Position numbers and translations under genes: made by a program
The notes under the pieces: generated by a model
Told to the model about the DNA's origin: nothing
What the model saw: the letters and a program-made list of their open reading frames with translations, nothing else
The model's database searches: none
In this document: positions 1,429-59,163 of the stretch, piece by piece
How the letters are laid out: the number at the start of each line of letters is the position of its first letter
Numbering within the stretch: position 1 is the stretch's first letter
NCBI RefSeq assembly: GCF_030286045.1
Contig: NZ_CP127390.1
Span: 1,550,001-1,614,000, forward strand
DNA length: 64,000 nucleotides
Source: Propionimicrobium sp. PCR01-08-3
GTDB lineage: Bacteria > Actinomycetota > Actinomycetes > Propionibacteriales > Propionibacteriaceae
Direction of reading: 5' to 3'

Positions 1429-2568
1429 TCATCGTTCTGTTCGTCCGGCTGAGTGCCGGTCGATGGCCAGTTGGTAATAGCCGACCAGCGCTTCGGTGGC
1501 GCTACGCCAGGAGTATCTCTCGGCTTCGGTGCGGGCCGCGCGTCCCATCCGCTCGCGAAGCTGCGGGTTGTCGGCCAGCAACCGCACCTTGCTCGCGAAT
1601 TCGTCCGAATCGTGTGGCGTGACCAAGAAACCCTGCACGCCGTCGTCGAAGAGATGGGGGATGCCGCCGGCATTTGCGCCGATCACCGGCACCCCGGAGG
1701 CCATCGCCTCCAACCCTGCGAACCCGAGAGTCTCGGTCGTCGACGGAAAACAGAAGACGTCGGCGCTGGCATAGGCCTCCGCCAGTTCGTGGCCCCGCAA
1801 ATAGCCGGTGAACACCGTGTTCGTTCCCGAGAACGCATTCTGCAGATGATCTTTGGCCGGCCCCGAGCCCACGAATGCGAACCGGACGCCCGGCATCTGG
1901 TGCACAACCGGCAGCAGATCGTCCAGACTCTTCTCGTGAGAGAGCCTCCCCACGTAGATCGCCAGCGGCAGTTCCGGATGGCCGTCGGTGAGCCTGCGGC
2001 GCATCCGTTTCGAGCGGGCCTGCGGACGATAGGTCACGGTATCGACGGCTTTGGGCCACAACTCGACGTCATGGACGCCATGGTTGAGCGCCGCAGCCAC
2101 CATCTGCGGGGAGGTGCACAAGTTGACCTCGGCTCGATTGTGCAGGGCGGTCGTCCACCGGGTGGCAGTGCTGCTCAGCCACGACAGATGCAGATCTTTC
2201 GTGTAACTGGCCAGCTGAGTGTGATAGGACGCGAGCAACGGAAGGTCACGGTGCTTCGCCGACAGCACACCGTAAGCGGCAAGCCACGCCGGGTTGACGG
2301 CGTGGACAACCTCCGGACGGAAAGCGATCATCTGCTCCGCGATCTTTGGGGTCGGCAGCCCGATCTTGACCTCTGGGTACCACGGGCGGAATCCCACCGA
2401 GCGAACCCGGACGACCTCACATCCTGCATAACTCGGCGGCGGGGATCCCGGTGCGAAGACGATCACCTGGTGGCCCATGGCCGTCAACTCGTCGAGAGTG
2501 CGGAGCACCCGGGTGACCACCCCGTCGATCTTCGGAAGGAAGACCTCGGTGAACATTGCGATGCGCAT
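1429..2568 (-). CDS. sqdX: GT4 glycosyltransferase, probable sulfoquinovosyl-diacylglycerol synthase (SQD2/SqdX type)
   Basis: Predicted to transfer sulfoquinovose from UDP-sulfoquinovose to diacylglycerol at the inner membrane face, the last step of sulfolipid (SQDG) synthesis. The 379-residue protein has the two Rossmann-like domains of GT4 enzymes: N-terminal acceptor side MRIAMFTEVFLPKIDGVV, C-terminal donor side with YVGRLSHEKSLDDL, and the E-x7-E motif in ETLGFAGLEAMASGVPVI. The central LWPKAVDT and the SxEMR/RRRL-like linker resemble plant SQD2 and cyanobacterial SqdX. Length matches SqdX (about 380). The neighbour transcribed just before it is a UDP-sulfoquinovose synthase, which decides the call; alone it could be read as an MgtA/PimB-like mannosyltransferase. 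Confidence 0.75.
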   Translation of the reverse strand: MRIAMFTEVFLPKIDGVVTRVLRTLDELTAMGHQVIVFAPGSPPPSYAGCEVVRVRSVGFRPWYPEVKIGLPTPKIAEQMIAFRPEVVHAVNPAWLAAYGVLSAKHRDLPLLASYHTQLASYTKDLHLSWLSSTATRWTTALHNRAEVNLCTSPQMVAAALNHGVHDVELWPKAVDTVTYRPQARSKRMRRRLTDGHPELPLAIYVGRLSHEKSLDDLLPVVHQMPGVRFAFVGSGPAKDHLQNAFSGTNTVFTGYLRGHELAEAYASADVFCFPSTTETLGFAGLEAMASGVPVIGANAGGIPHLFDDGVQGFLVTPHDSDEFASKVRLLADNPQLRERMGRAARTEAERYSWRSATEALVGYYQLAIDRHSAGRTER

Positions 2569-2680
2569 CGGTATTGGTTGCTCCTGGCGTTCTGATCTTG
2601 CGCTGAATCCGGTTCTATCACGGCCTGGTCACGTCGTTTTATCGGCGGCCGGCCCCTATCGGATCCTGGCCGGCGGCCGC

Positions 2681-3883
2681 TTACCGGTCTCCCGCCCGGG
2701 ATGCGGGTACACCCGCCTGCTGGTTCTTCGTCCACAACGAAGTAGCAGGAATCCGGCTGAGATCGGCGCGCTCGGCGTAGCGTCCGGCTGTTTCGTTGAT
2801 CTCCATCAGCAAGCCCTCGGCCAGGGTGATCGGGTCCAGCCCGAGCGCCAGGAAATTGTCGTTGTGCACGACAAGTTCGTTCTCGGCGGCTTCCTTGCGT
2901 GGGTCGGGCACCTGCTCGATGACCGCGCCGGTGAGTTCGGCGACCAGTTTGGCCAGATCACGCACCCGATGGGTCTCGGTCATCTGGTTGAAGATCTTCA
3001 CCCGATCGCCTGCGGACGGGGGATTGTCCAGCGCGATCTCGATGCAGCGCACCATGTCTTGAAGGTGAATGAAGGCGCGGGTTTGACCGCCGGTACCGTG
3101 CACGGTCAGCGGGTATCCGACAGCGGCCTGCATCAAGAAGCGGTTCAACACCGTGCCGTAGTCACCGTCGTAATCGAATCTGTTGATCAGCCGCTCGTCC
3201 ATCTTGGTCTGAACCGTATTGGTGCCCCAGATGATGCCCTGGTGCAGATCGGTGATGCGCAACTCGTCGTTCTTGGCGTAGTAGGCGAACATCGTCTGAT
3301 CGATCACCTTGGTCATGTGATAGATCGAGCCCGGATTGGTGGGGTAGAGGATCTCGGTTTCGACCACGCCCTCGTCGGTGGGCACCTGAATGTCGAGGTA
3401 TCCCTCGGGGATGGCCATGCCTGCCGTGCCGTAGCCGTAGACACCCATGGTGCCCAAATGCACCAGATGGATGTCCTGGCCCGATTCGACGATCGCGCAC
3501 AGCACGTTGTGGGTGGCGTTGACGTTGTTGTCGATGGTGTAGCGCTTGTGCTTGCCGGACTTCATCGAATAAGGGGCAGCGCGTTGCTCGGCGTAGTGGA
3601 TGATGGCGTCGGGGCGCTCCTCGCGCAGCAATTCGAGAAGACCCTGGTAGTCCTGTGCCACGTCGAGTTCGGTGACCTTGATATCGCGGCCGCTGACCTG
3701 CTGCCAAGCCTGGCGGCGCTCGGTCATCGTCCGAATCGGGGTGAGAGATTGGACGCCCAGTTCTTCATCGATCCGCCGCCTCGAGAAATTGTCGACGATG
3801 ACGACGTCGTCTCCGCGTGCCGACAGGTGCAGGGACGCCGGCCATCCGCAGAATCCGTCGCCGCCCAGTACCAGAACCTTCAT
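2681..3883 (-). CDS. sqdB: UDP-sulfoquinovose synthase (SQD1/SqdB family)
   Basis: Extended short-chain dehydrogenase that makes UDP-sulfoquinovose from UDP-glucose and sulfite. The 400-residue protein carries the NAD-binding glycine motif GGDGFCGW (residues 7-14), the LGTMG block (143-147) with the catalytic Thr, and Tyr188-x3-Lys192 in SIYHMTK. Stretches such as IIHYAEQRAAPYSM, VLNRFLMQAAVGYPLTVHG, GGQTRAFIHLQDMVRCIEIA and the VPDPRKEAAENE tail match Arabidopsis SQD1 almost position for position, separating it from ordinary GalE or dTDP-glucose dehydratases. It precedes the SqdX-type gene by 112 bp in the same direction. Start ATG at 3883 places the Rossmann fold at the N-terminus as in SqdB. 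No cofactor glutamate synthase is adjacent. Confidence 0.9.
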   Translation of the reverse strand: MKVLVLGGDGFCGWPASLHLSARGDDVVIVDNFSRRRIDEELGVQSLTPIRTMTERRQAWQQVSGRDIKVTELDVAQDYQGLLELLREERPDAIIHYAEQRAAPYSMKSGKHKRYTIDNNVNATHNVLCAIVESGQDIHLVHLGTMGVYGYGTAGMAIPEGYLDIQVPTDEGVVETEILYPTNPGSIYHMTKVIDQTMFAYYAKNDELRITDLHQGIIWGTNTVQTKMDERLINRFDYDGDYGTVLNRFLMQAAVGYPLTVHGTGGQTRAFIHLQDMVRCIEIALDNPPSAGDRVKIFNQMTETHRVRDLAKLVAELTGAVIEQVPDPRKEAAENELVVHNDNFLALGLDPITLAEGLLMEINETAGRYAERADLSRIPATSLWTKNQQAGVPASRAGDR

Positions 3884-4064
3884 CTCATCACTTTCGCTCG
3901 ACAGCTATACCTGGCGGAGGCCCACCGGTTCGCGTACTTCGATGATTCGCCGCCGCTCATGAACGCGTTCATTCACCGTCGCACTCTCGGCGCCCCGGCT
4001 GGATGGGCTCCCTTCCGGGATCCATCGGCACCTCAGGGCTCGGCCCACAGCCACACTATCGGGT

Positions 4065-5261
4065 TCAGACCCCGGCATTCACAGTTTCCGGACGCGGGCG
4101 CCGATATCGCAACGGCAGCAAACAGGCCACGATCCCGGCCACCGCAACGAGCGTGAATGCCGCACGGACACTGGCGAGTTCGGCGATTCCACCCATCAGT
4201 GGCGAGTTGAACGTGAGCCCGATCCGGATGGCGAAACCGACGAGAGTGATGCCTGTCCCGGACGCCACTCCGGATAGTCGGCCGGCCGCGCTGAAGGCCA
4301 TCGGAATGATCGGAGCGCAGCCGATGCCCATCAGAACCAGGCCCAGATAGACCAGCGGAGCCACCGGCGTGATGATCATCAATAGACCTCCCGCAGCCAC
4401 CAGGCCGCCGCCGATACTGGCCACGGTCTCCTGACCGAACCGGTCCGACAGCGGGTCGCTGAGCAGTCGTCCGATCACCTGGGCAATGAGCATGACCGTC
4501 ACCGCCAGCCCGGCCAGGGAAAAGCCGACTTCGAAGCGTCCGACCAGATAGAGGGCCGCCCAGTTGTTGGTGGTGTCTTCGGGAATCACGCCTACCACAC
4601 CCAGCAGCGCCAGCGGAATCACGGGCAGCAGCCGGCGCCAGTTCGTGGGGGAGCGATGCGATTGTTTCTCGCGGATCTGCGCGCGCTTCACGTCGTCCGG
4701 AATGACACCCATCCGGTAACAGATCAGGGCCAATGTGATGATCACCAGCGACATGGCGATTCCGTGTGCGTAAAGCGGTATGCCCAGTCCGGACGCCGCC
4801 GACCCCGCCAAGGTCGCCGTCATCGCCCCGAGACTCCAGGTGGCGTGCAGCGAGTTCATAATGGTGCGGCCCGCCCACAGCTGGACGGCAACTCCCTGGG
4901 TGTTCTGTGCCGCATCGATGTGCGCGTCCAACGCACCCATCACCAAGAACGCGAAGGCAAAGAGCACCGGGTTGAGCGCGCAGGCGGCGACACTCAGCAT
5001 GACGGCGGCCGCGATCGTCGCAGTCAAAGCGACCTTGAGCGGGCCGAAGCGCGCAATGAACTTCGCGGGCATCGGCCCGACCACCAGCGCCCCGACTCCC
5101 ATGGCGGCCACCACGATGCCATAGAAACCATCGCTCAGCTCGAACGACTGTTTGATCTCCGGAAGCCTCGGGGTCAACGTGAGCATCAAACCGTTCGTCA
5201 TGAAGTTCAGCGACACGCCGATGCGGGCGCGACGCGGGGTCGGCTGTGATGGTTGGGGCAC
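4065..5261 (-). CDS. MFS transporter upstream of the sulfolipid genes
   Basis: Major facilitator of 398 residues with twelve predicted helices; the first half begins RRARIGVSLNFMTNGLMLTLTPRLPEIKQ, like the FucP/YfkF-type MFS proteins. Same strand as the sqd-like pair with a 181-bp gap, so co-transcription is possible but not shown. Role unknown: it could carry a sugar or sulfonate, or be unrelated to the sulfolipid pathway. A charged, non-conserved central loop (residues about 185-205, DDVKRAQIREKQSHRS) joins the halves. Start ATG at 5261 was taken because it precedes helix 1 by about 12 residues. Confidence 0.75.
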   Translation of the reverse strand: MPQPSQPTPRRARIGVSLNFMTNGLMLTLTPRLPEIKQSFELSDGFYGIVVAAMGVGALVVGPMPAKFIARFGPLKVALTATIAAAVMLSVAACALNPVLFAFAFLVMGALDAHIDAAQNTQGVAVQLWAGRTIMNSLHATWSLGAMTATLAGSAASGLGIPLYAHGIAMSLVIITLALICYRMGVIPDDVKRAQIREKQSHRSPTNWRRLLPVIPLALLGVVGVIPEDTTNNWAALYLVGRFEVGFSLAGLAVTVMLIAQVIGRLLSDPLSDRFGQETVASIGGGLVAAGGLLMIITPVAPLVYLGLVLMGIGCAPIIPMAFSAAGRLSGVASGTGITLVGFAIRIGLTFNSPLMGGIAELASVRAAFTLVAVAGIVACLLPLRYRRPRPETVNAGV

Positions 5262-8264: not shown

Positions 8265-9611
8265 ATGGCTACGACTGACGTGCAAGATCCCATATCCATG
8301 GACGACGTACCCCTGAGTCGTTTCCATATGAAGCTGTTCTTCTGCAGCGCCGGATGCCCGCTCGTCGACGGCTATGCGCTCGGAATCATCGCCGTCGCCC
8401 TAGCGCAGATGCAAAAGTTCGTGGAACTGTCAGCGCTGATGTCTGCGCTCATCGGGATGGCCACCCTGTGCGGCATGTTCATCGGCAGTCTCATCGGCGG
8501 CCAGCTCACCGATCTGATCGGGCGGCGAAAGATGTTCATCATCGACTTCGCCGTCATCACGACCGTTTGCATTGTCGGATTCTTCTTCACCGACCCGCTC
8601 ATCGTCTTCATCTTCCGGATCCTTCTCGGAGTGGCGATGGGCGCCGATTACCCGGTGGCCGGTCCCTACCTCACCGAGTTCATACCGAGATCCAAGCGCG
8701 GGTCGCTGGTCGGCACCCTCAACGCATTCTGGTACATCGGGTATGCGGCCGCCTTCGTCATCGGATACTTCATGCTCGGTATCGGTGAAACCGCCTGGCG
8801 TTGGATGCTGCTGACCCCCGGCATCTTGTCAGGCGTCTGGCTGATCGAACGATGCCAGGCACCTGAATCGCCCCGTTGGCTGATGAGCAAGGGACGCGAC
8901 GCCGACGCACAGAAGATCCTCACGAAGATCGGACCGAACGTGGTCTTGCCCGAACATGATGATCACGACGGCGATGACAAGCCGCGCGTCCGCCTCGCCG
9001 ATATCTTCAGGAACGGCTCGGGCAAGTGGGTCTTCTTCGTGGCCGCCTTCTGGTCGTTGCAGGTATTGCCGACGTTTGGTATCGGCACCTACGTGCCGAT
9101 CATCATGGAGAGCATGGGATTCGCCGAGGGAAACATGCAGTACCTCGGCTCGGCCCTGATGAACGTCTTCTACCTGCTCGGCCTGGTTCCGGTCTTCTTC
9201 TTGATGGACACCCTCGGACGCAGGCTCACCATGATCTGGGCCTTCGCCATCTCGGGTGCGGCATTGTTCGTGCTCGCCGCCACCTCACATCTCAATATGC
9301 CGTTCTGGTTCATCCTGGTTGTCTTCATCATCTACGGCGCGTTCAACGTCTCGATGGGCGCCCATCAGTGGATCTACCCCAACGAATTGTTCCCCACGCA
9401 CATCCGTGGAACGGCGAGCGGGTTCTGCACGGCGGTCAGCCGCATCGTCTCGGCGGTGGGCACTTTCTTGTTCCCGTTCGTCATGGATCGGTTCGGCATT
9501 GCGGCCACGCTGGGGATTTGCGGTGGACTGTTCATGATCGGGCTCGTTCTGTCGATCATCATGGCTCCGGAGACCCGCAACATGAACCTGGCCGACAGCA
9601 CCCATCTCTAG
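8265..9611 (+). CDS. MFS transporter of the sugar porter type
   Basis: Twelve-helix carrier of 448 residues. Sugar-porter hallmarks are present in order: GRRKMFIID after helix 2, RILLGVAMGADYPVAGPYLTEFIPRSKRG, the PESPRWLMSKGR signature at the end of the first half, GRRLTM in the second half, and the PNELFPTHIRGTASG motif before helix 11. Charged loop residues about 218-240 (EHDDHDGDDK) link the halves. Start ATG at 8265 is preceded by AAGGAGG with good spacing; a longer open frame from 8151 has no such support. Substrate (sugar, polyol or aromatic acid) is not evident; no catabolic genes adjoin. Confidence 0.85.
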   Translation: MATTDVQDPISMDDVPLSRFHMKLFFCSAGCPLVDGYALGIIAVALAQMQKFVELSALMSALIGMATLCGMFIGSLIGGQLTDLIGRRKMFIIDFAVITTVCIVGFFFTDPLIVFIFRILLGVAMGADYPVAGPYLTEFIPRSKRGSLVGTLNAFWYIGYAAAFVIGYFMLGIGETAWRWMLLTPGILSGVWLIERCQAPESPRWLMSKGRDADAQKILTKIGPNVVLPEHDDHDGDDKPRVRLADIFRNGSGKWVFFVAAFWSLQVLPTFGIGTYVPIIMESMGFAEGNMQYLGSALMNVFYLLGLVPVFFLMDTLGRRLTMIWAFAISGAALFVLAATSHLNMPFWFILVVFIIYGAFNVSMGAHQWIYPNELFPTHIRGTASGFCTAVSRIVSAVGTFLFPFVMDRFGIAATLGICGGLFMIGLVLSIIMAPETRNMNLADSTHL

Positions 9612-9799
9612 TCGGCACCAACCCACAGGCATGCCACCCACCGTGGCGTATGTCCGCCCCGGCTGCCGCAGCCGTCTCCTTGACGTCGTCCGGGCCAGTT
9701 GCCCGAGCAACACCCGTTGAGAGCCGATAACACTGCGGATACCACCCGCCCAACTGATCAAGCAGTGAGAGGCAGCGGAGGTCCGGTGAGTTCGGCAGG

Positions 9800-10477
9800 C
9801 TAGGCAGGTTTTCCGTCGGCGAGAAAGGCCAGAATGGCTCGCACCCGGCGGTTTTCCTCGTCCGGCCTCAGTCTGAGTTTCACGAAGATGTTGGCGACGT
9901 GTTTGGCAACCGCAGCATTCGACAGCACCAACTCCTGAGCGATCTGCGAGTTCGATAAACCACGTGCCATCAGCTCGAGCACTTCCAGTTCGCGTGGGCT
10001 GAGGTCGCCGAGTCCCGATCTGCTGGATCGCATCATGGCGCTCGCCACCTGAGGGTCGATGACCATGCCGCCGGCGGCCACCACACGCAAGGATTGAATG
10101 AAGTCGGCAACGTGAGAGACTCTGTCTTTCAGCAGATAGCCCGACCCACCCGAACCTGAAGTCGACGGCAGCGCGAAAAGCTGCTGCGCGTAGACCGGGG
10201 CCACATATTGGCTGAGCACCAGAACGGCCAATTCGGGATACCGCGTCTTGAGGTCGAGCGCTGCCTGCAGGCCATCATTGGTCATGGTCGGAGGCATCCT
10301 GACATCGGTGATGAGCACGTCCGGCAGCTCGCCCTGGTCGGCCAGCCGGGTCATGGTCGACCGCAGCGTGTCGGCCCGGGGTTCCCGCGCGACGACTGTG
10401 AAACCCTGCCGCTCCAATAGACCGATCAGACCCTCGCGCAACAAAGCCGAGTCGTCCGCTATCGCCAATGTCGTCAT
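9800..10477 (-). CDS. NarL/FixJ-type response regulator
   Basis: DNA-binding partner of the histidine kinase encoded just upstream. The receiver domain (residues 1-120) has the acidic pocket Asp8-Asp9, phospho-acceptor Asp58 (ITDVRMPP) and Lys in YLLKDRV; the LuxR-type helix-turn-helix (about 155-215) reads LSPRELEVLELMARGLSNSQIAQEL. Length 225 is typical. Its ATG overlaps the kinase stop by 4 bp (ATGA). The divergent ABC-FtsX pair is the likely target, as in other actinobacterial modules of this kind. Confidence 0.9.
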   Translation of the reverse strand: MTTLAIADDSALLREGLIGLLERQGFTVVAREPRADTLRSTMTRLADQGELPDVLITDVRMPPTMTNDGLQAALDLKTRYPELAVLVLSQYVAPVYAQQLFALPSTSGSGGSGYLLKDRVSHVADFIQSLRVVAAGGMVIDPQVASAMMRSSRSGLGDLSPRELEVLELMARGLSNSQIAQELVLSNAAVAKHVANIFVKLRLRPDEENRRVRAILAFLADGKPA

Positions 10478-53290: not shown

Positions 53291-53916
53291 AGCTGTGCCG
53301 GATCCTGGCCGTCGCGCACCAGCACATAGATCGCCGAGCCGGCAAGCAGATTCGCGCCGGCTTGCCCGAGCGCGCGTGGCCTGCCGTGCGGTGACAACGG
53401 GATGCGCTTCTCCAACGCGAGCTTTGTATCGTCGAACAACGGCTCCAGGTCGACCAGGGTGGCGTGGTGCAGGTTCGGCGTGGCATACCAGCTGTAGGGC
53501 AGATCCTTCGATCGGGGCATGTGCCCGCCCAGCAACCGCAACCGGTGCCGCCAGTAGCCGAAGTTCGGCATGGTGACGATGAGTCTCGGGGCGATTCTCC
53601 TCATCTCGTTCAATACGAGGTCAGGACGCAGCACCGCCTGCAAGGTACGGCTGAGCACTACGACGTCATAGGAATCCGATGCGAACAATTCGAGCTGGCT
53701 GTCGATGTCGAGCTCGATCAGCGGGACGCCCCGTTTGATCGCGGCGAGCACTTCCTCTTGGCCACGCTCCACGCCGGTGCCCGTACAGTTGCGGCGGCGG
53801 ATCAGCCAGCTCAGCAGCTCACCGTCACCGCAGCCCAGATCGAGCACGCGGGAGCCCGCCGGAATATTGCGGGCGATGACATGGAGGTCCTCCCGCAGTT
53901 GCATCGACTGGCTCAT
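53287..53916 (-). CDS. metW: Methionine biosynthesis protein MetW
   Basis: Class I methyltransferase-fold partner of MetX. 209 residues: VLDLGCGDGELLSWLIRRRNCTGTGVERGQEEVLAAIKRGVPLIELDID, VVVLSRTLQAVLRPDLVLNEMRRIAPRLIVTMPNFGYWRHRLRLLGGHMPRSKDLPYSWYATPNLHHATLVD; this NFGYW...PYSWYDTPN block is specific to MetW. In MetX/MetW systems it activates homoserine acylation. ATG 53916 overlaps the metX stop in ATGA; the frame upstream of that belongs to metX sequence. Shares 4 bp at its end with the exonuclease gene. Confidence 0.9.
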   Translation of the reverse strand: MSQSMQLREDLHVIARNIPAGSRVLDLGCGDGELLSWLIRRRNCTGTGVERGQEEVLAAIKRGVPLIELDIDSQLELFASDSYDVVVLSRTLQAVLRPDLVLNEMRRIAPRLIVTMPNFGYWRHRLRLLGGHMPRSKDLPYSWYATPNLHHATLVDLEPLFDDTKLALEKRIPLSPHGRPRALGQAGANLLAGSAIYVLVRDGQDPAQL

Positions 53917-55070
53917 GCGCGTCCCCAAGCCGTGTTCTGGTAATTCGTGGAAGCCTCCAAGAATGCCTTCACCGTCGCGAGATAGGGGTCGATCTTCAGC
54001 AGGAAGGAATCGTGCCCCCACGGAGAATGAATGTCACGGAACGTCACCGGCAATTCGGCCGCGGCCAGCTGACGGACGATCCGTCTGCTGTGCTCGGTGG
54101 AAAACCGCCAGTCCGAATCGAAGCTCATCACCAGATAGCGGACCGGATCTTTCTTGACGGCATCGAGTGCCGTGGGATTCGAGAACGGGTCGAAGTAGTC
54201 CATGACCCGGGTGAGGTAGAGGTAACTCAGCGCATCGAACCTGGTCAGGAACGTTTCACCCTGGTGCTCCAGGTAGCCCTCCACTGCGAAGTCGACGCCG
54301 AACCCTGGTTCGGACTCGTCGAATTGCGGATTGCGTCCGAACTTCGTCTGGAAGCCCTCTTCGGAGGTGTAGGTGATGTGAGCCATCATCCGCGCGATCG
54401 ACAGGCCGACATCCGGGTTGTCGCCGCAGTCGGAGAAACGGCCGTCATGGAAGTTCTCGTCCCGGATGATCGCTTCGCGTCCCACCGCCGAGAAGGCGAT
54501 GTTCTGAGCCGTCAGTCTGCTGGAGGCGGCGATAATCACCGAGTTCTCCAGTTCGTCGGGATATGACAGCGACCACTGCAGAGCCTGCATGCCACCCATG
54601 GATCCGCCGATCACGGCATGCAGTTTCCGGACGCCCAGATGGGCGATCAATGCCCGGTGCACGGTCACGAAATCGCAGGTATCCAGCAGTGGAAAGTCGA
54701 GTCCCCAGGGTTTGCCCGTCGCCGGGTTGATCGAGCTGGGCCCGGTGCTGCCCTGACAGCCGCCGAGCAGATTGGACGCGATCACGAACCAGCGGTTGGT
54801 GTCGATGGCCTTTCCCGGCCCGATCATGGTGTCCCACCAGCCCGGGTGCTTGTCGCCTTCATGCCAGCCCGCCGCATGGGCGTCACCGGTCAACGCATGA
54901 CAGATATAGATCGCATTGCTGGCATCGGCATTGAGTTCGCCATAGGTCTCGTAAGCGATCACGACTTCGTCCAGCTGCTGGCCCGCCGTCAATTTCAACG
55001 GTTTGTCGGCGGTGAACAGCTGGACGTATCTGGTCTCGGTGATACCCAGGCCATCCGAAATAGTTGGCAT
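53913..55070 (-). CDS. metX: Homoserine O-acyltransferase MetX
   Basis: Alpha/beta-hydrolase enzyme that acylates (normally acetylates) homoserine in methionine synthesis. 385 residues: nucleophile Ser in the elbow AVIGGSMGGMQALQW, oxyanion/substrate loop LLGGCQGSTGPSSINPATGKPWG, catalytic Asp in SFDSDWRFSTEHSRRI and His in HSPWGHDSFLL. GCQGST is typical for the acetyl-CoA-using group. Lies 16 bp after metY and overlaps metW. Confidence 0.93.
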   Translation of the reverse strand: MPTISDGLGITETRYVQLFTADKPLKLTAGQQLDEVVIAYETYGELNADASNAIYICHALTGDAHAAGWHEGDKHPGWWDTMIGPGKAIDTNRWFVIASNLLGGCQGSTGPSSINPATGKPWGLDFPLLDTCDFVTVHRALIAHLGVRKLHAVIGGSMGGMQALQWSLSYPDELENSVIIAASSRLTAQNIAFSAVGREAIIRDENFHDGRFSDCGDNPDVGLSIARMMAHITYTSEEGFQTKFGRNPQFDESEPGFGVDFAVEGYLEHQGETFLTRFDALSYLYLTRVMDYFDPFSNPTALDAVKKDPVRYLVMSFDSDWRFSTEHSRRIVRQLAAAELPVTFRDIHSPWGHDSFLLKIDPYLATVKAFLEASTNYQNTAWGRA

Positions 55071-55086
55071 CAGTTACCGGCCCGCA

Positions 55087-56388
55087 TCACTTTCCGGTGA
55101 CCGCCAACGCCTGATCGATGTCGGCGATGATGTCGTCCACGTTCTCGATGCCGACCGACAGCCGTACCATCTCCGGCGCGACGCCGGCAGCAATGAGCTC
55201 TTGATCGTTCAGCTGCGAATGCGTGGTCGATGCACTGTGGATGACCAGAGACTTTGCATCACCGATGTTGGCCAGGTGGCTGAACAGTTGCAGGGCTTCG
55301 ACGAAGGTGGCGCCTGCTTGGCGTCCGGCGGTCAATCCGAAGCTGACCAGGCCGCTGTAGCCCTTGCCGGTCAATACTCGGTCTGCGACCTCGTGATATT
55401 CGTTGTCTTCGAGCCCCGGGTAGTTCACCCACGCCACGGCGGGATGCCCCAATAAGTATTCCGCCACCTTTTGGGCGTTCTCGCAGTGCCGGTCCATCCT
55501 GACGTGGAGGCTTTCGATGCCTTGCAGGATGATCCAGGCGTTCATCGGCGACAAGGTGGCTCCGGTGTTGCGCATCAGCACGGTGCGGGCCCGGGTGATG
55601 TAGGCGGCCGGCCCGGCGGCATCTGTCCATACGACATCGTGATAGGAGGCGTCAGGCGTCGCCATCACCGGGAAACGGTCGGCATGAGCGGCCCAATCAA
55701 AAGTGCCCGCGTCGACGATGGCGCCGCCCATCGAGGTGCCGTGCCCGCCCATGTACTTGGTGGCCGAATGCACCACGACATCGGCCCCGTGCTCGATCGG
55801 ACGGCACAGGTAGGGCGTCGCCACCGTGTTGTCGATCATGAACGGCAACCCCAGATCGTGGCTCGCCTTTGCCCAGGCGTCGATGTCGATCACGTTGAGC
55901 TTCGGATTACAGATCGTCTCGCCGAAAACCAGCCTCGTGTGGTCGTCCACCAATCCGGCGAGGTCGCCGGGACGATCGGGATCGATGAGCCGGCATTCGA
56001 TGCCGAACTGTACGAGGGTGTGGGTGAACAGCGCGAAGGTGCCGCCGTACAGCGTCGACAGCGCGACGATGTTGTCGCCCGCCGAGGCGACGTTCAGCAC
56101 GGCATAGGTGATGGCCGCCGCGCCGGTGGCGGTGCCGAGCGCTCCCACGCCGCCTTCCATCGCTGCGATCCGCGTCTCATAGACGTTGGTGGTGGGGTTC
56201 ATCAGCCGGGTGTAGATATTGCCCGGCCTGGCCAGCGCGAACAGGTCGGCGGCGTGCTTCGAGTCGTCGAAGGTGTAGGCGGCGGTCTGGTAGATCGGCA
56301 CGGCGCGCGAGTTGGTCGCCGGGTCGGATTCTTCCTGACCGGCGTGCACAGCCAAGGTTTCCAGCTGATAGGTCGGATGATCGGCCAT
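55087..56388 (-). CDS. metY: O-acetylhomoserine sulfhydrylase (aminocarboxypropyltransferase) MetY
   Basis: PLP enzyme that makes homocysteine from O-acetylhomoserine and sulfide. 433 residues: LAVHAGQEESDPATNSRAVPIYQTAAYTF, YTRLMNPTTNVYETRIAAMEGG, GTATGAAAI, and the PLP lysine in VVHSATKYMGGHGTSMGG. ATG 56388 has AAGGGG upstream. First of three methionine genes (metY-metX-metW) forming a direct sulfhydrylation pathway; 87 bp from the end of ribY, so read-through from the FMN-riboswitch operon is possible. Confidence 0.93.
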   Translation of the reverse strand: MADHPTYQLETLAVHAGQEESDPATNSRAVPIYQTAAYTFDDSKHAADLFALARPGNIYTRLMNPTTNVYETRIAAMEGGVGALGTATGAAAITYAVLNVASAGDNIVALSTLYGGTFALFTHTLVQFGIECRLIDPDRPGDLAGLVDDHTRLVFGETICNPKLNVIDIDAWAKASHDLGLPFMIDNTVATPYLCRPIEHGADVVVHSATKYMGGHGTSMGGAIVDAGTFDWAAHADRFPVMATPDASYHDVVWTDAAGPAAYITRARTVLMRNTGATLSPMNAWIILQGIESLHVRMDRHCENAQKVAEYLLGHPAVAWVNYPGLEDNEYHEVADRVLTGKGYSGLVSFGLTAGRQAGATFVEALQLFSHLANIGDAKSLVIHSASTTHSQLNDQELIAAGVAPEMVRLSVGIENVDDIIADIDQALAVTGK

Positions 56389-56475
56389 CGATGTCCCCTT
56401 TCGGATCGGCGCCAACCAGGCTACCTGCGTCCACCGTCAATTTTGGCTGCGTTCCACTCACCGCGCAGAACCTCT

Positions 56476-57483
56476 TTATCCCTCCACTACCTTCGTTGTG
56501 AAGGCATCGGTGGCGGCCACCGGAGAACTCACCAGCCCTGCTTCGGTGAAGAAGCTTGTCATCTGGTCCCAGCGGTCGGGGGTTTGGACGCCGAATTGTC
56601 CGCCATAAAGGTCGGTCGTCGCGTCCAGCACCGCCAAGGCGTGGGATTGTTGCTCGGAATCCGCCAAGGTCGGCACATAGTCGGCGGCGATCTGAACGAC
56701 CTGCTCCGGGTCGGACGCGCAGAGCTCCGCTCCCCTGGTCATCGCCTCCAGCAGGCCCGTCAGATCGTCGGCTCGCTCGTCGATGGTCTGGTCCATGGCG
56801 CCGAGGCCGACGCTGACCAGTGGCGGATCGTCCAAGCTGATCGTCCGGATGGCGAAGTCGGATTCCGCGAAACGAACGACGTCGTTGTTGAGGAAGCCGA
56901 CCACGGCCTCGACCTTGTTACCGGTGAGGGCCGACAACTGGGTGAAGCCGATCGATTGAATGTCGAGATCATCGCGGGTCAGCCCGGTCTGGGCAAGCAC
57001 GGCGAGTAGGTAGAACCAGTTCTCGCCGTATTCGCCGGGCAGCCCGATGCTGTGTCCGCGCAGGTCGGCAAGGCTTTGGATCGGGGACGCCTCGGGCACG
57101 ATGATGGTCACCGGATAGTTCTGGTAGGCGGTGGCGAAGTTACACACCTCGATGCCTTCGCTGCGGCCCTGCAACATCTCTCCACCACCGGCAAAGACAA
57201 CGTCCTCGTCGCCTGTTTGCAGAGCCCCGAGCAAGGTCTCGTTGGCGCCGTGGTGGCGCAGTGTCACCGATAGTCCTGCCTCGGTGAACCAGCCCAGCGA
57301 GTCGGCCACATACGCGGGAGCAAATTGAATGTCCGGCACGTAGGTGAGGCCGAGCGTGAGTGCCGCCGTCCTTGCTGAAGCCCCGGACGACGCCGAGTTG
57401 GCGCCCTGGCCGGGACGCGAGCAGGCCGCGAGGCCGGCCAACAGCGCCGAACCGAGCAGGGTCCGGCGGGTCATGGATTGCAT
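56476..57483 (-). CDS. ribY: Riboflavin-type ABC substrate-binding lipoprotein (RibY/ThiY-like, NMT1 fold)
   Basis: 335 residues with a signal combining twin Arg and lipobox: MTRRTLLGSALLAGLAAC, cleavage before the Cys. The mature part is the NMT1/THI5-like fold: LTLGLTYVPDIQFAPAYVADSLGWFTEAGLSVTLRHHGANETLLGALQTGDEDVVFAGGGEM, SLADLRGHSIGLPGEYGENWF. Related receptors bind thiamine precursors, but the FMN riboswitch upstream points to riboflavin, as in the RibXY importers. AAGGAG eight bases before ATG; 10 bp after the permease gene. Confidence 0.85.
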   Translation of the reverse strand: MQSMTRRTLLGSALLAGLAACSRPGQGANSASSGASARTAALTLGLTYVPDIQFAPAYVADSLGWFTEAGLSVTLRHHGANETLLGALQTGDEDVVFAGGGEMLQGRSEGIEVCNFATAYQNYPVTIIVPEASPIQSLADLRGHSIGLPGEYGENWFYLLAVLAQTGLTRDDLDIQSIGFTQLSALTGNKVEAVVGFLNNDVVRFAESDFAIRTISLDDPPLVSVGLGAMDQTIDERADDLTGLLEAMTRGAELCASDPEQVVQIAADYVPTLADSEQQSHALAVLDATTDLYGGQFGVQTPDRWDQMTSFFTEAGLVSSPVAATDAFTTKVVEG

Positions 57484-57493
57484 CTGAATCTCC

Positions 57494-58309
57494 TTAATTG
57501 TTATGGCGAAGATGACCGAGCCGATACCAGCGGGAGCTGGACGCGAACGGATTCGCCAGCCATTCGAGAAAGGTCATGCCGAGGTAGATCGCGATCGCCA
57601 GAACGCACAGCACGATCAAGGTACTGAACAGTCCGGTGGTGTCGCTCGACTGGGATTGCACGGCGAGCCGCTGGCCCAGCCCGCTTCCGCCCATCACCAG
57701 CTCACCGACGACGGCGCCGGTGATCGACAGGGTGAAGCCGTTACGAACGCCGGTCAGGGTGGCGGGCAACGCCAGGGGCCATTCGATCCAGCGAGCCAGC
57801 TGCCCGCGTCCGGCCCCGTCGACCAGGGCCGCGTCGATCACTTCGCGATCGATACTGCGTAGTCCGAGCACAGTGGCCAGAACCATCGGAAAGAAGACCA
57901 TGACAGAACACAGCAGGACGACCGGCCACGTTCCGTACCCCACCCAGATCACCAGCAGCGGCGCCAGGGCCACCGCCGGCACGGCCTGGGAGGCAGCCAG
58001 ATAAGGGTTGAGGGTCGCCTCGGCGAGACGCACATGGGCGATGAGATAGGCCACCGGCAACGCAATAACCGTCGCCATCGCGCAGCCACAGGATGCTTCC
58101 AGCAGCGTCGCCCCGATCGGCTTCCACAGCCTGCCCGAGGCCAGCTCGGCGCCGAGACGCTCGACCACCGACAACGGGCTCGGCAGCAGCGTTGCCGGAA
58201 CAGTGCTGAACGAAGCCAGCAACCACCAGACCAACACCAAAACGATGCCGGCGATAACAGGAGCAACAATCCGCAGACCCAACGGCGCCTGCCGTATGCG
58301 GATATCCAT
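57494..58309 (-). CDS. ribX: Riboflavin-type ABC permease (RibX-like)
   Basis: 271 residues, six helices, BPD_transp_1 permease of the SsuC/ThiX type: LLPSPLSVVERLGAEL, ASQAVPAVALAPLLVIWVGYGTWPVVLLCSVMVFFPMVLATVLGLRSIDREVIDAALVDGAGR (EAA loop with the coupling Asp-Gly), FTLSITGAVVGELVMGGSGLGQ. First gene behind the FMN riboswitch; no ATPase gene follows, so it must share an ATPase encoded elsewhere. Confidence 0.87.
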   Translation of the reverse strand: MDIRIRQAPLGLRIVAPVIAGIVLVLVWWLLASFSTVPATLLPSPLSVVERLGAELASGRLWKPIGATLLEASCGCAMATVIALPVAYLIAHVRLAEATLNPYLAASQAVPAVALAPLLVIWVGYGTWPVVLLCSVMVFFPMVLATVLGLRSIDREVIDAALVDGAGRGQLARWIEWPLALPATLTGVRNGFTLSITGAVVGELVMGGSGLGQRLAVQSQSSDTTGLFSTLIVLCVLAIAIYLGMTFLEWLANPFASSSRWYRLGHLRHNN

Positions 58310-58368
58310 GCCGCGTCGCCACCTTCCCGGTCATCATGCCGGGGTCGACGCGTGCGGCAGAGATGCAT

Positions 58369-58390
58369 GCCGACATCAACCGATGCCGGC
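58369..58390 (-). other. Hairpin between FMN aptamer and ribX, likely expression platform
   Basis: GCCGACATC (58369-58377) and GATGCCGGC (58382-58390) form a 9-bp stem with one G-U pair and a 4-nt loop, 25 bases after the aptamer on the minus-strand transcript. No U-run follows, so it more likely acts in alternative folding or weak termination. Confidence 0.5.
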
Positions 58391-58414
58391 CGGCACAATC
58401 TGCCGAGCGCGACG

Positions 58415-58540
58415 TGCGCCTCCCATCCGGACTTTAACCGTCGGTACCGGAATTACACCGGTTCAACCGCATCGCCATTTCTCAATGACATGCGGGTCGC
58501 GGACTATCACCGCCGGTTCGGACTTTCACCGACCCCGGGC
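58415..58540 (-). ncRNA. FMN riboswitch (RFN element)
   Basis: Minus-strand transcript reads GGTGAAAGTCCGAACCGGCG at its 5' side, then GTGATAGTCCGCGACCC, a variable hairpin, GAACCGGTGTAATTCCGGTA, CCGACGGTTAAAGTCCGG and ATGGGAGG at the 3' side. These are the conserved blocks of the RFN aptamer in the right order and spacing, about 125 nt. It precedes ribX and should switch off the importer when FMN is plentiful. Confidence 0.95.
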
Positions 58541-58562
58541 ACGTTCGTTTTGCTCGAACAAG

Positions 58563-58568
58563 ACTATA
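58563..58568 (-). promoter_or_regulatory. -10 box of the FMN-riboswitch transcript
   Basis: Minus strand TATAGT, about 22 nt before the aptamer begins. No good -35 seen. Confidence 0.5.
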
Positions 58569-58606
58569 GCGTGGTTTCACCGCTACCGCATCGCATCCCA
58601 GATTGG

Positions 58607-58612
58607 TACCAT
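58607..58612 (+). promoter_or_regulatory. -10 box of a leaderless promoter (mazE-like)
   Basis: TACCAT, 6 nt (CTAGGC), ATG at 58619. The promoter is divergent from the riboswitch promoter about 40 bp away. Confidence 0.6.
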
Positions 58613-58618
58613 CTAGGC

Positions 58619-58852
58619 ATGAGTATGCAGATCGCAGTCCGGCTTCCCGATGAGCTCGCGCAGTTCGTGGACGCCGAGGTTACCGCCGGCCATGCGCCGA
58701 GTCGCGCGGCGGTTGTGACACGTGCTCTCGAACGCGAGCAGCGCTATCGTGCGGCGCTCGCTGATATCGAGATTCTCAAGAACACTCAACCAGATGACGA
58801 TTTCGATGCGCTCGCCAGGCATGCAGCACATCGGCCGCTCGACTTGGACTGA
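58619..58852 (+). CDS. mazE: MazE-like antitoxin
   Basis: 77 residues with a ribbon-helix-helix start: MQIAVRLPDELAQFVDAEVTAGHAPSRAAVVTRALEREQRYRAALADIEILKN, followed by an acidic/disordered toxin-wrapping tail (QPDDDFDALARHAAHRPLDLD). Typical of actinobacterial MazE antitoxins. Six bases separate it from the toxin gene. Likely represses its own leaderless promoter. Confidence 0.85.
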   Translation: MSMQIAVRLPDELAQFVDAEVTAGHAPSRAAVVTRALEREQRYRAALADIEILKNTQPDDDFDALARHAAHRPLDLD

Positions 58853-58857
58853 TCTAG

Positions 58858-59163
58858 ATGAGGCCCATCTACCTCGCCAGACTCGACAAAACTCGTCCCG
58901 TACTTGTGCTCACCCGTGAACTCGTCCGCCCTTATCTGAACAGCGTTACTGTCGCGCCCATTACTTCGACCATTCGAGGGCTATCCACCGAGCTGCCGGT
59001 CGGTTCACGCAACGGCTTGGACCATGATTGCGTCGTGAGTCTCGACAACATCGTCACGATTACGGTCAAGGACCTGGGCAGACAGATCGGATTCCTGCTG
59101 CCCGATCAAGAAGGAAACCTTACTGAAGCGATGATGAATGCCTTCGATCTCGTGACCTCGTGA
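58858..59163 (+). CDS. mazF: MazF/PemK-like endoribonuclease toxin
   Basis: 101 residues: MRPIYLARLDKTRPVLVLTRELVRPYLNSVTVAPITSTIRGLSTELPVGSRNGLDHDCVVSLDNIVTI. The catalytic Arg (about 13 or 40) and the Thr/Ser of TSTIRGLSTE, plus the family NxDnI block, are kept; length is normal. Cleaves RNA when free of MazE. Second gene of the pair, ending 43 bp before the convergent drug exporter. Confidence 0.88.
   Translation: MRPIYLARLDKTRPVLVLTRELVRPYLNSVTVAPITSTIRGLSTELPVGSRNGLDHDCVVSLDNIVTITVKDLGRQIGFLLPDQEGNLTEAMMNAFDLVTS

Follow-up and report, generated by a model that had tools for sequence, protein, structure and literature searches.

Introduction

The sulfolipid SQDG, well known from plant chloroplasts, is usually associated with photosynthetic membranes, but it also occurs in non-photosynthetic rhizobia and in Brevundimonas, and Sinorhizobium meliloti makes it through sqdB. 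The intermediates of the SqdB reaction follow a glucose-5-ene route. Two published accounts have UDP-glucose and sulfite joined by an NAD-dependent synthase (PMC9594981, PMC12890257), and the first of them names Bacillus coahuilensis as a reported non-phototrophic SQDG producer. The following step, transfer of sulfoquinovose to diacylglycerol, is assigned to SQD2/SqdX in another paper (Sato 2021, PMC8227023). Two major SQD1/SqdB clades were already described there, the first with the green plants and several cyanobacterial groups, and the second with red algae, alphaproteobacteria and the cyanobacteria of other groups.

Here we examine a pair of genes in Propionimicrobium sp. PCR01-08-3, located in a stretch of 64,000 nucleotides (contig NZ_CP127390.1, positions 1,550,001 to 1,614,000 of the forward strand) which is referred to as the window and in which all coordinates below are counted. 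The pair probably represents a known pathway in a less described host group; its host is probably a non-photosynthetic actinobacterium.

Results

The gene located at 2681-3883 (minus strand, read from 3883 to 2681; 400 aa) very probably encodes a UDP-sulfoquinovose synthase of the SqdB/SQD1 type, an NAD-dependent SDR of the form II clade described below, on the combined evidence of phmmer, the NF041015 model, motifs and a tree. Among PDB sequences, phmmer placed Arabidopsis SQD1 at the top (1qrr and 1i24; E about 6e-95, 5.9e-95 for 1qrr; residues 2-386), with 43% identity, and the next function after it, UDP-glucuronic acid decarboxylase, followed at E 5.6e-12. The predicted fold is settled by this homology. 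The best NCBIfam model was the UDP-sulfoquinovose synthase NF041015, with 341.8 bits against a cut-off of 575 that is not reached, but this cut-off does not define the whole family, because a cyanobacterial SqdB adjoining sqdX likewise misses it with 466.9 bits. T145 (within LGTMG), Y188, K192 and the motif GGDGFCGW are all present. Across 67 aligned rows selected from the loci (57 of form II and 10 of form I), T145, Y188, K192, R101 and GGDGxCGW are invariant, and the glycine-rich motif varies only at F11, which is Y in some form I rows. We take the Thr/Tyr/Lys residues and the glycine-rich NAD motif to have catalytic and NAD-binding roles. The original prediction had placed an SQD1/SqdB-type synthase at 2681-3883, with the GT4 as the next gene, and had named LGTMG, Tyr188 and Lys192; our analysis bears it out on each of these points and finds both reading frames on the minus strand. 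Searching the genome (3.29 Mb, two contigs) returned a single sqdB match, and third-position GC is high in both genes of the pair (0.81 in sqdB, 0.79 in its GT4 neighbour).

The SqdB tree is divided by a very long branch (support 100) into two forms of 57 and 10 rows, the larger of which, form II, is richly sampled because the query is itself form II. Form II holds the window SqdB, the sampled alphaproteobacteria, Bacillota and Trueperaceae, as well as six cyanobacterial rows, and outside it lie SQD1 and the Tildeniella SqdB found beside sqdX (form I). Our form II fits the second clade of PMC8227023. For SqdB as for the adjoining GT4, the closest rows that carry a name are actinobacterial. The genome of Tildeniella torsiva holds both sqdB forms, form II at one locus (L048) and form I beside sqdX at another (L116).

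The second gene of the pair, at 1429-2568 (minus strand, read from 2568 to 1429; 379 aa), lies 112 bases 3' of sqdB. Its product contains the domains PF13439 and PF00534, with the EX7E motif at 279-287 (E279 to E287), and it is a putative UDP-sulfoquinovose:diacylglycerol sulfoquinovosyltransferase of the SqdX type, an assignment based on reciprocal best match, pairing and diagnostic residues; the GT4 fold alone would not distinguish donors. Used as a query against five cyanobacterial genomes, it found one GT4 in each at 345-362 bits, with all others at 98.3 bits or less, and in the reverse search the Tildeniella copy (L116) retrieved the window GT4 first from the window's genome (357 bits; next 228). 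These cyanobacterial proteins are called SqdX by similarity, not by annotation, and in two cases also by place, given that the Tildeniella gene follows a form I sqdB at a distance of about 45 bases and the Leptothoe gene (L115) follows a form II sqdB; for the other three copies, no sqdB was found within the stretch examined. Identity is 45% to the cyanobacterial copies versus an average of 34% to the MgtA-like proteins. Diagnostic positions were those that set 25 SqdX-like rows, none of them from the window's own group, apart from 14 MgtA-like rows, and at 10 of 10 the window GT4 has the SqdX and not the MgtA state, which is shared by the five relatives checked.

The second-best GT4 of the window's genome, L105, was left out of that choice and agrees with the MgtA-like rows at 9 of 11 positions and with the SqdX-like rows at one. 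It belongs to a different group; twelve genomes were searched for this group, and each of the nine actinobacterial ones has a member. The orthologue of L105 in Corynebacterium minutissimum (L189) is flanked by menG (398.8 bits) and by an end fragment resembling menD (77 bits, below the cut-off), which we take to be the place of mgtA and from which the name MgtA-like is drawn. Another orthologue (L187) had only a menD-like fragment in view nearby, and L105 itself has other neighbours, with no menG/menD setting.

The GT4 trees were made from chosen subsets of 68, 38 and 60 rows, the first of them without L003, L008, L009, L022, L023 and the genome's own paralogues L108, L112 and L114, among others. 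In the three trees the SqdX-like rows occupy one side of a branch with SH-aLRT values of only 91, 91 and 87, and the MgtA-like rows cluster separately at 98, leaving out the window GT4. Approximately unbiased (AU) tests did not reject joining the window group to the MgtA-like group (p 0.052 with 38 rows, 0.507 with 60 rows), nor joining the cyanobacterial and Bacillota copies to it (p 0.118). A sister relation between the window GT4 and SqdX is not firmly given by these trees and tests, because distant outgroups decide the root. The original prediction of an SqdX-like GT4 next to sqdB is supported by homology, the reciprocal best matches, the repeated pairing in several phyla and the diagnostic residues. 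Its proposed phylogenetic check came out divided, since the firm grouping with MgtA that would have spoken against it was not seen, whereas an SqdX clade was recovered only at the values given above. An SqdX-type enzyme is supported by similarity, residues and context, and not firmly by the deep branching order. No assayed enzyme from the window GT4's own group was seen in the literature searched.

All eight genomes of the genus carry sqdB with a GT4 adjoining it on the same strand, and identity of the window sqdB to those of the other seven is 85-93%; in one of them (G006) a contig end interrupts the gene, and its two pieces lie in different frames. In a draw of 97 genomes from the family, 38 gave an sqdB match at E 0.001. 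The match was strong in 16 of these, which come from 6 of 29 genera (E at or below 1.7e-99), each with a GT4 beside sqdB on one strand, and the other 22 were weak epimerase-type matches at E 4.4e-11 or weaker. Among the named loci, which are the best 80 of 588 relatives, the pair is present in 20 of 26 actinobacterial loci (the six without it belong to Prauserella, Saccharomonospora and Nocardioidaceae), 5 of 5 from Trueperaceae, 2 of 6 from Bacillota and 1 of 7 from cyanobacteria, and no alphaproteobacterial locus had a match to the window GT4 of at least 250 bits. Pairing of this GT4 family with sqdB recurs in Actinomycetota, Deinococcota, Bacillota and Cyanobacteriota. The original prediction had described SQDG as a lipid of plastids, cyanobacteria and some rhizobia; homologues of SqdB range through the bacteria far more widely than this implies. 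In Pontibacillus the GT4 gene is 2.8 kb from sqdB on the opposite strand. In Pontibacillus marinus (L041), sqdB is immediately followed by a gene for a LAGLIDADG-domain protein (9359-10447), and the GT4 gene lies beyond it.

In a draw of 396 genomes from the phylum, sqdB was found at E 1e-60 in 99 and the GT4 in 41. Of 35 genomes with a GT4 match of at least 253 bits, 32 have sqdB, versus 99 of 396 overall (Fisher p 2.5e-18), but 34 of the 35 are in one family (f19) and therefore are not independent events. Besides the window's genome, 13 of these genomes have sqdB and GT4 adjacent by their coordinates, in each case with an sqdB that shares 43-47% identity with that of the window; in f19, the form II copies (70-71% identical) do not adjoin the GT4. 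The two genes of the window probably form an operon, although the 112 bases between them exceed the gap of most relatives.

Form II sqdB also occurs without an SqdX-type GT4, in L042 and L051 (Saccharomonospora and Prauserella) and on a Rhodococcus qingshengii plasmid (L229). GT2-domain proteins are encoded near sqdB at these loci (758-772 aa in L042 and L051, 624 aa on the plasmid), and the plasmid further encodes a 639 aa protein without a Pfam family and an alkyl sulfatase. The sulfoquinovose of these three hosts may go to another acceptor.

Upstream of sqdB, an MFS transporter (PF07690, MFS_1; 94.8 bits) is encoded at 4065-5261 on the minus strand and is probably outside the pathway. This reading frame, which the original prediction had tentatively attached to the pair, is real, but as a conserved pathway member it was rejected: of the 17 loci compared, only 4 have a member of its cluster, and these belong without exception to this genus (G000, G002, G003 and, about 2.9 kb from sqdB, G001). 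The ORFs selected near sqdB in G004 and G005 included none, and in G006 and G007 the upstream flank is cut by a contig end. Scanning for a direct repeat that we take to be the actinobacterial PHO box gave no match in 3884-4064 and 11 in the whole window, where 13.1 were expected. A promoter scan returned one site, at chance level, and by inspection no shared upstream element was seen in the regions found for 9 of the 13 loci tried, the window counted. A perfect 14-base palindrome lies at 3959-3972, upstream of sqdB, and is not obvious upstream in relatives.

With regard to sulfite, a search of this genome with PF01507, the family that includes PAPS/APS reductases, gave no match, whereas 14 of 14 control genomes matched. 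Within the genus, 7 of 8 genomes score over the family cut-off, five strongly (best 154-165 bits) and two weakly (41 bits or less), this genome being the one with none; sulfate reduction may have been lost within the genus. SsuD (TIGR03565) also has no match here, and 8 of 14 controls match it, two over the cut-off. On the minus strand of the window, 53913-58309 holds in a row metX, metY and genes for an SsuA-family/NMT1-type binding protein and an SsuC/TauC/SaoP-like permease, with no ATPase gene seen beside them, and this row could be a sign of organosulfur uptake. A plus-strand ORF at 58858-59163 encodes a PemK/MazF-type toxin (Pfam, 45.1 bits), and the ORF preceding it (region 58034-59163) has no Pfam match and an end that by eye resembles a ribbon-helix-helix antitoxin.

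Discussion

Our results indicate that sqdB and its GT4 neighbour most likely constitute a sulfolipid unit in which SqdB would make UDP-sulfoquinovose and the GT4 would transfer it to diacylglycerol, with SQDG as the product; it is the known chemistry of the two families, together with homology, that leads from the gene pair to SQDG synthesis. SqdB would bind NAD and UDP-glucose, oxidize and dehydrate the sugar to a glucose-5-ene intermediate and add sulfite to this intermediate, giving UDP-sulfoquinovose. The SqdX-type GT4 would then pass sulfoquinovose to diacylglycerol and yield SQDG, a phosphorus-free anionic lipid that could replace part of the anionic phospholipid. The gene pair is intact and probably working.

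The acceptor cannot be read from sequence, and UDP-sulfoquinovose could be made in this species while the GT4 passes the sugar to a different acceptor, such as another glycolipid, a glycan of the cell wall or a compound that is secreted, in which case the product would not be SQDG. There are precedents of a kind, as form II sqdB lies near genes for GT2-domain proteins instead of SqdX in the actinobacterial loci L042, L051 and L229, and one archaeon is described as placing sulfoquinovose in N-glycans (PMC9594981). Those GT2-domain partners, however, belong to a different family from the window GT4, which is linked to cyanobacterial copies by best matches in both directions, with two of these copies beside sqdB, and has all 10 diagnostic residues, and we therefore regard another acceptor as improbable.

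About equally improbable is that the pathway stands idle for want of sulfite, as the relic of a sulfate-reducing ancestor. The genome has no PF01507 and no SsuD match in a genus where seven of eight genomes do match PF01507. Sulfite can, however, come from sources other than sulfate reduction, such as thiosulfate, taurine-type sulfonates and cysteine oxidation, and upkeep of sqdB is argued by the fact that the gene is intact, has all its motifs and keeps 85-93% identity across the genus. Finally, it is very improbable that the window GT4 is an MgtA/PimB-type mannosyltransferase or other lipid glycosyltransferase next to sqdB by chance, since, despite the 34% average identity to MgtA-like proteins and AU tests that fail to reject joining the groups, the genome has a separate MgtA-like GT4 (L105) whose orthologue L189 sits in an mgtA-like setting, the MgtA-like group excludes the window GT4 at 98, and pairing of its family with sqdB recurs in four phyla.

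Beyond the synthesis of SQDG by this pair, a wider reading would make SQDG a regular membrane lipid in a broad range of heterotrophic Actinomycetota (Corynebacterium, Brevibacterium, Kocuria, Citricoccus, Gulosibacter and the window's genus), with form II SqdB and SqdX-type GT4 combined in a mixed pathway and with the sulfite of the window species not derived from assimilatory sulfate reduction. We hold this combined reading tentatively, at slightly less than an even chance. If it is true, SQDG would be a general phosphate-sparing anionic lipid in actinobacteria not known to photosynthesize, and such actinobacteria would be a source of sulfoquinovose; some of those with sqdB and sqdX belong to skin and food genera. 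The missing sulfate-reduction step raises the concrete question of where the sulfite originates. The genes are of a known kind, and as far as our searches reach, it is their spread in actinobacteria and the missing step that are less described; in the open-licence literature searched, PMC13086504 and PMC6946739 included, neither SQDG nor the sqdB-sqdX pair was seen reported for actinobacteria, which does not imply absence from print. The surprise is moderate, given that sulfolipid in non-photosynthetic bacteria is already known.

Among the described systems, the MgtA-like actinobacterial GT4 mannosyltransferases are the next nearest GT4 group (about 34% identical), but they form their own group at 98, have another genome context where seen and carry another residue at the 10 diagnostic positions. 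Arabidopsis SQD1 is the closest solved structure and has the same catalytic residues as the window SqdB, from which it differs in being only 43% identical and outside the form II clade. The alphaproteobacterial sqdB genes of Sinorhizobium meliloti, Brevundimonas and Maricaulis are in that clade and are 66-71% identical, but the S. meliloti gene on pSymB (66%) is followed by a GT8 gene and not by a GT4. The cyanobacterial sqdB-sqdX operon, as found in Tildeniella (L116), has the same two families in the same order and on one strand, with a GT4 that is the reciprocal best match of the window's; unlike the form II SqdB of the window, its SqdB is form I and 43% identical.
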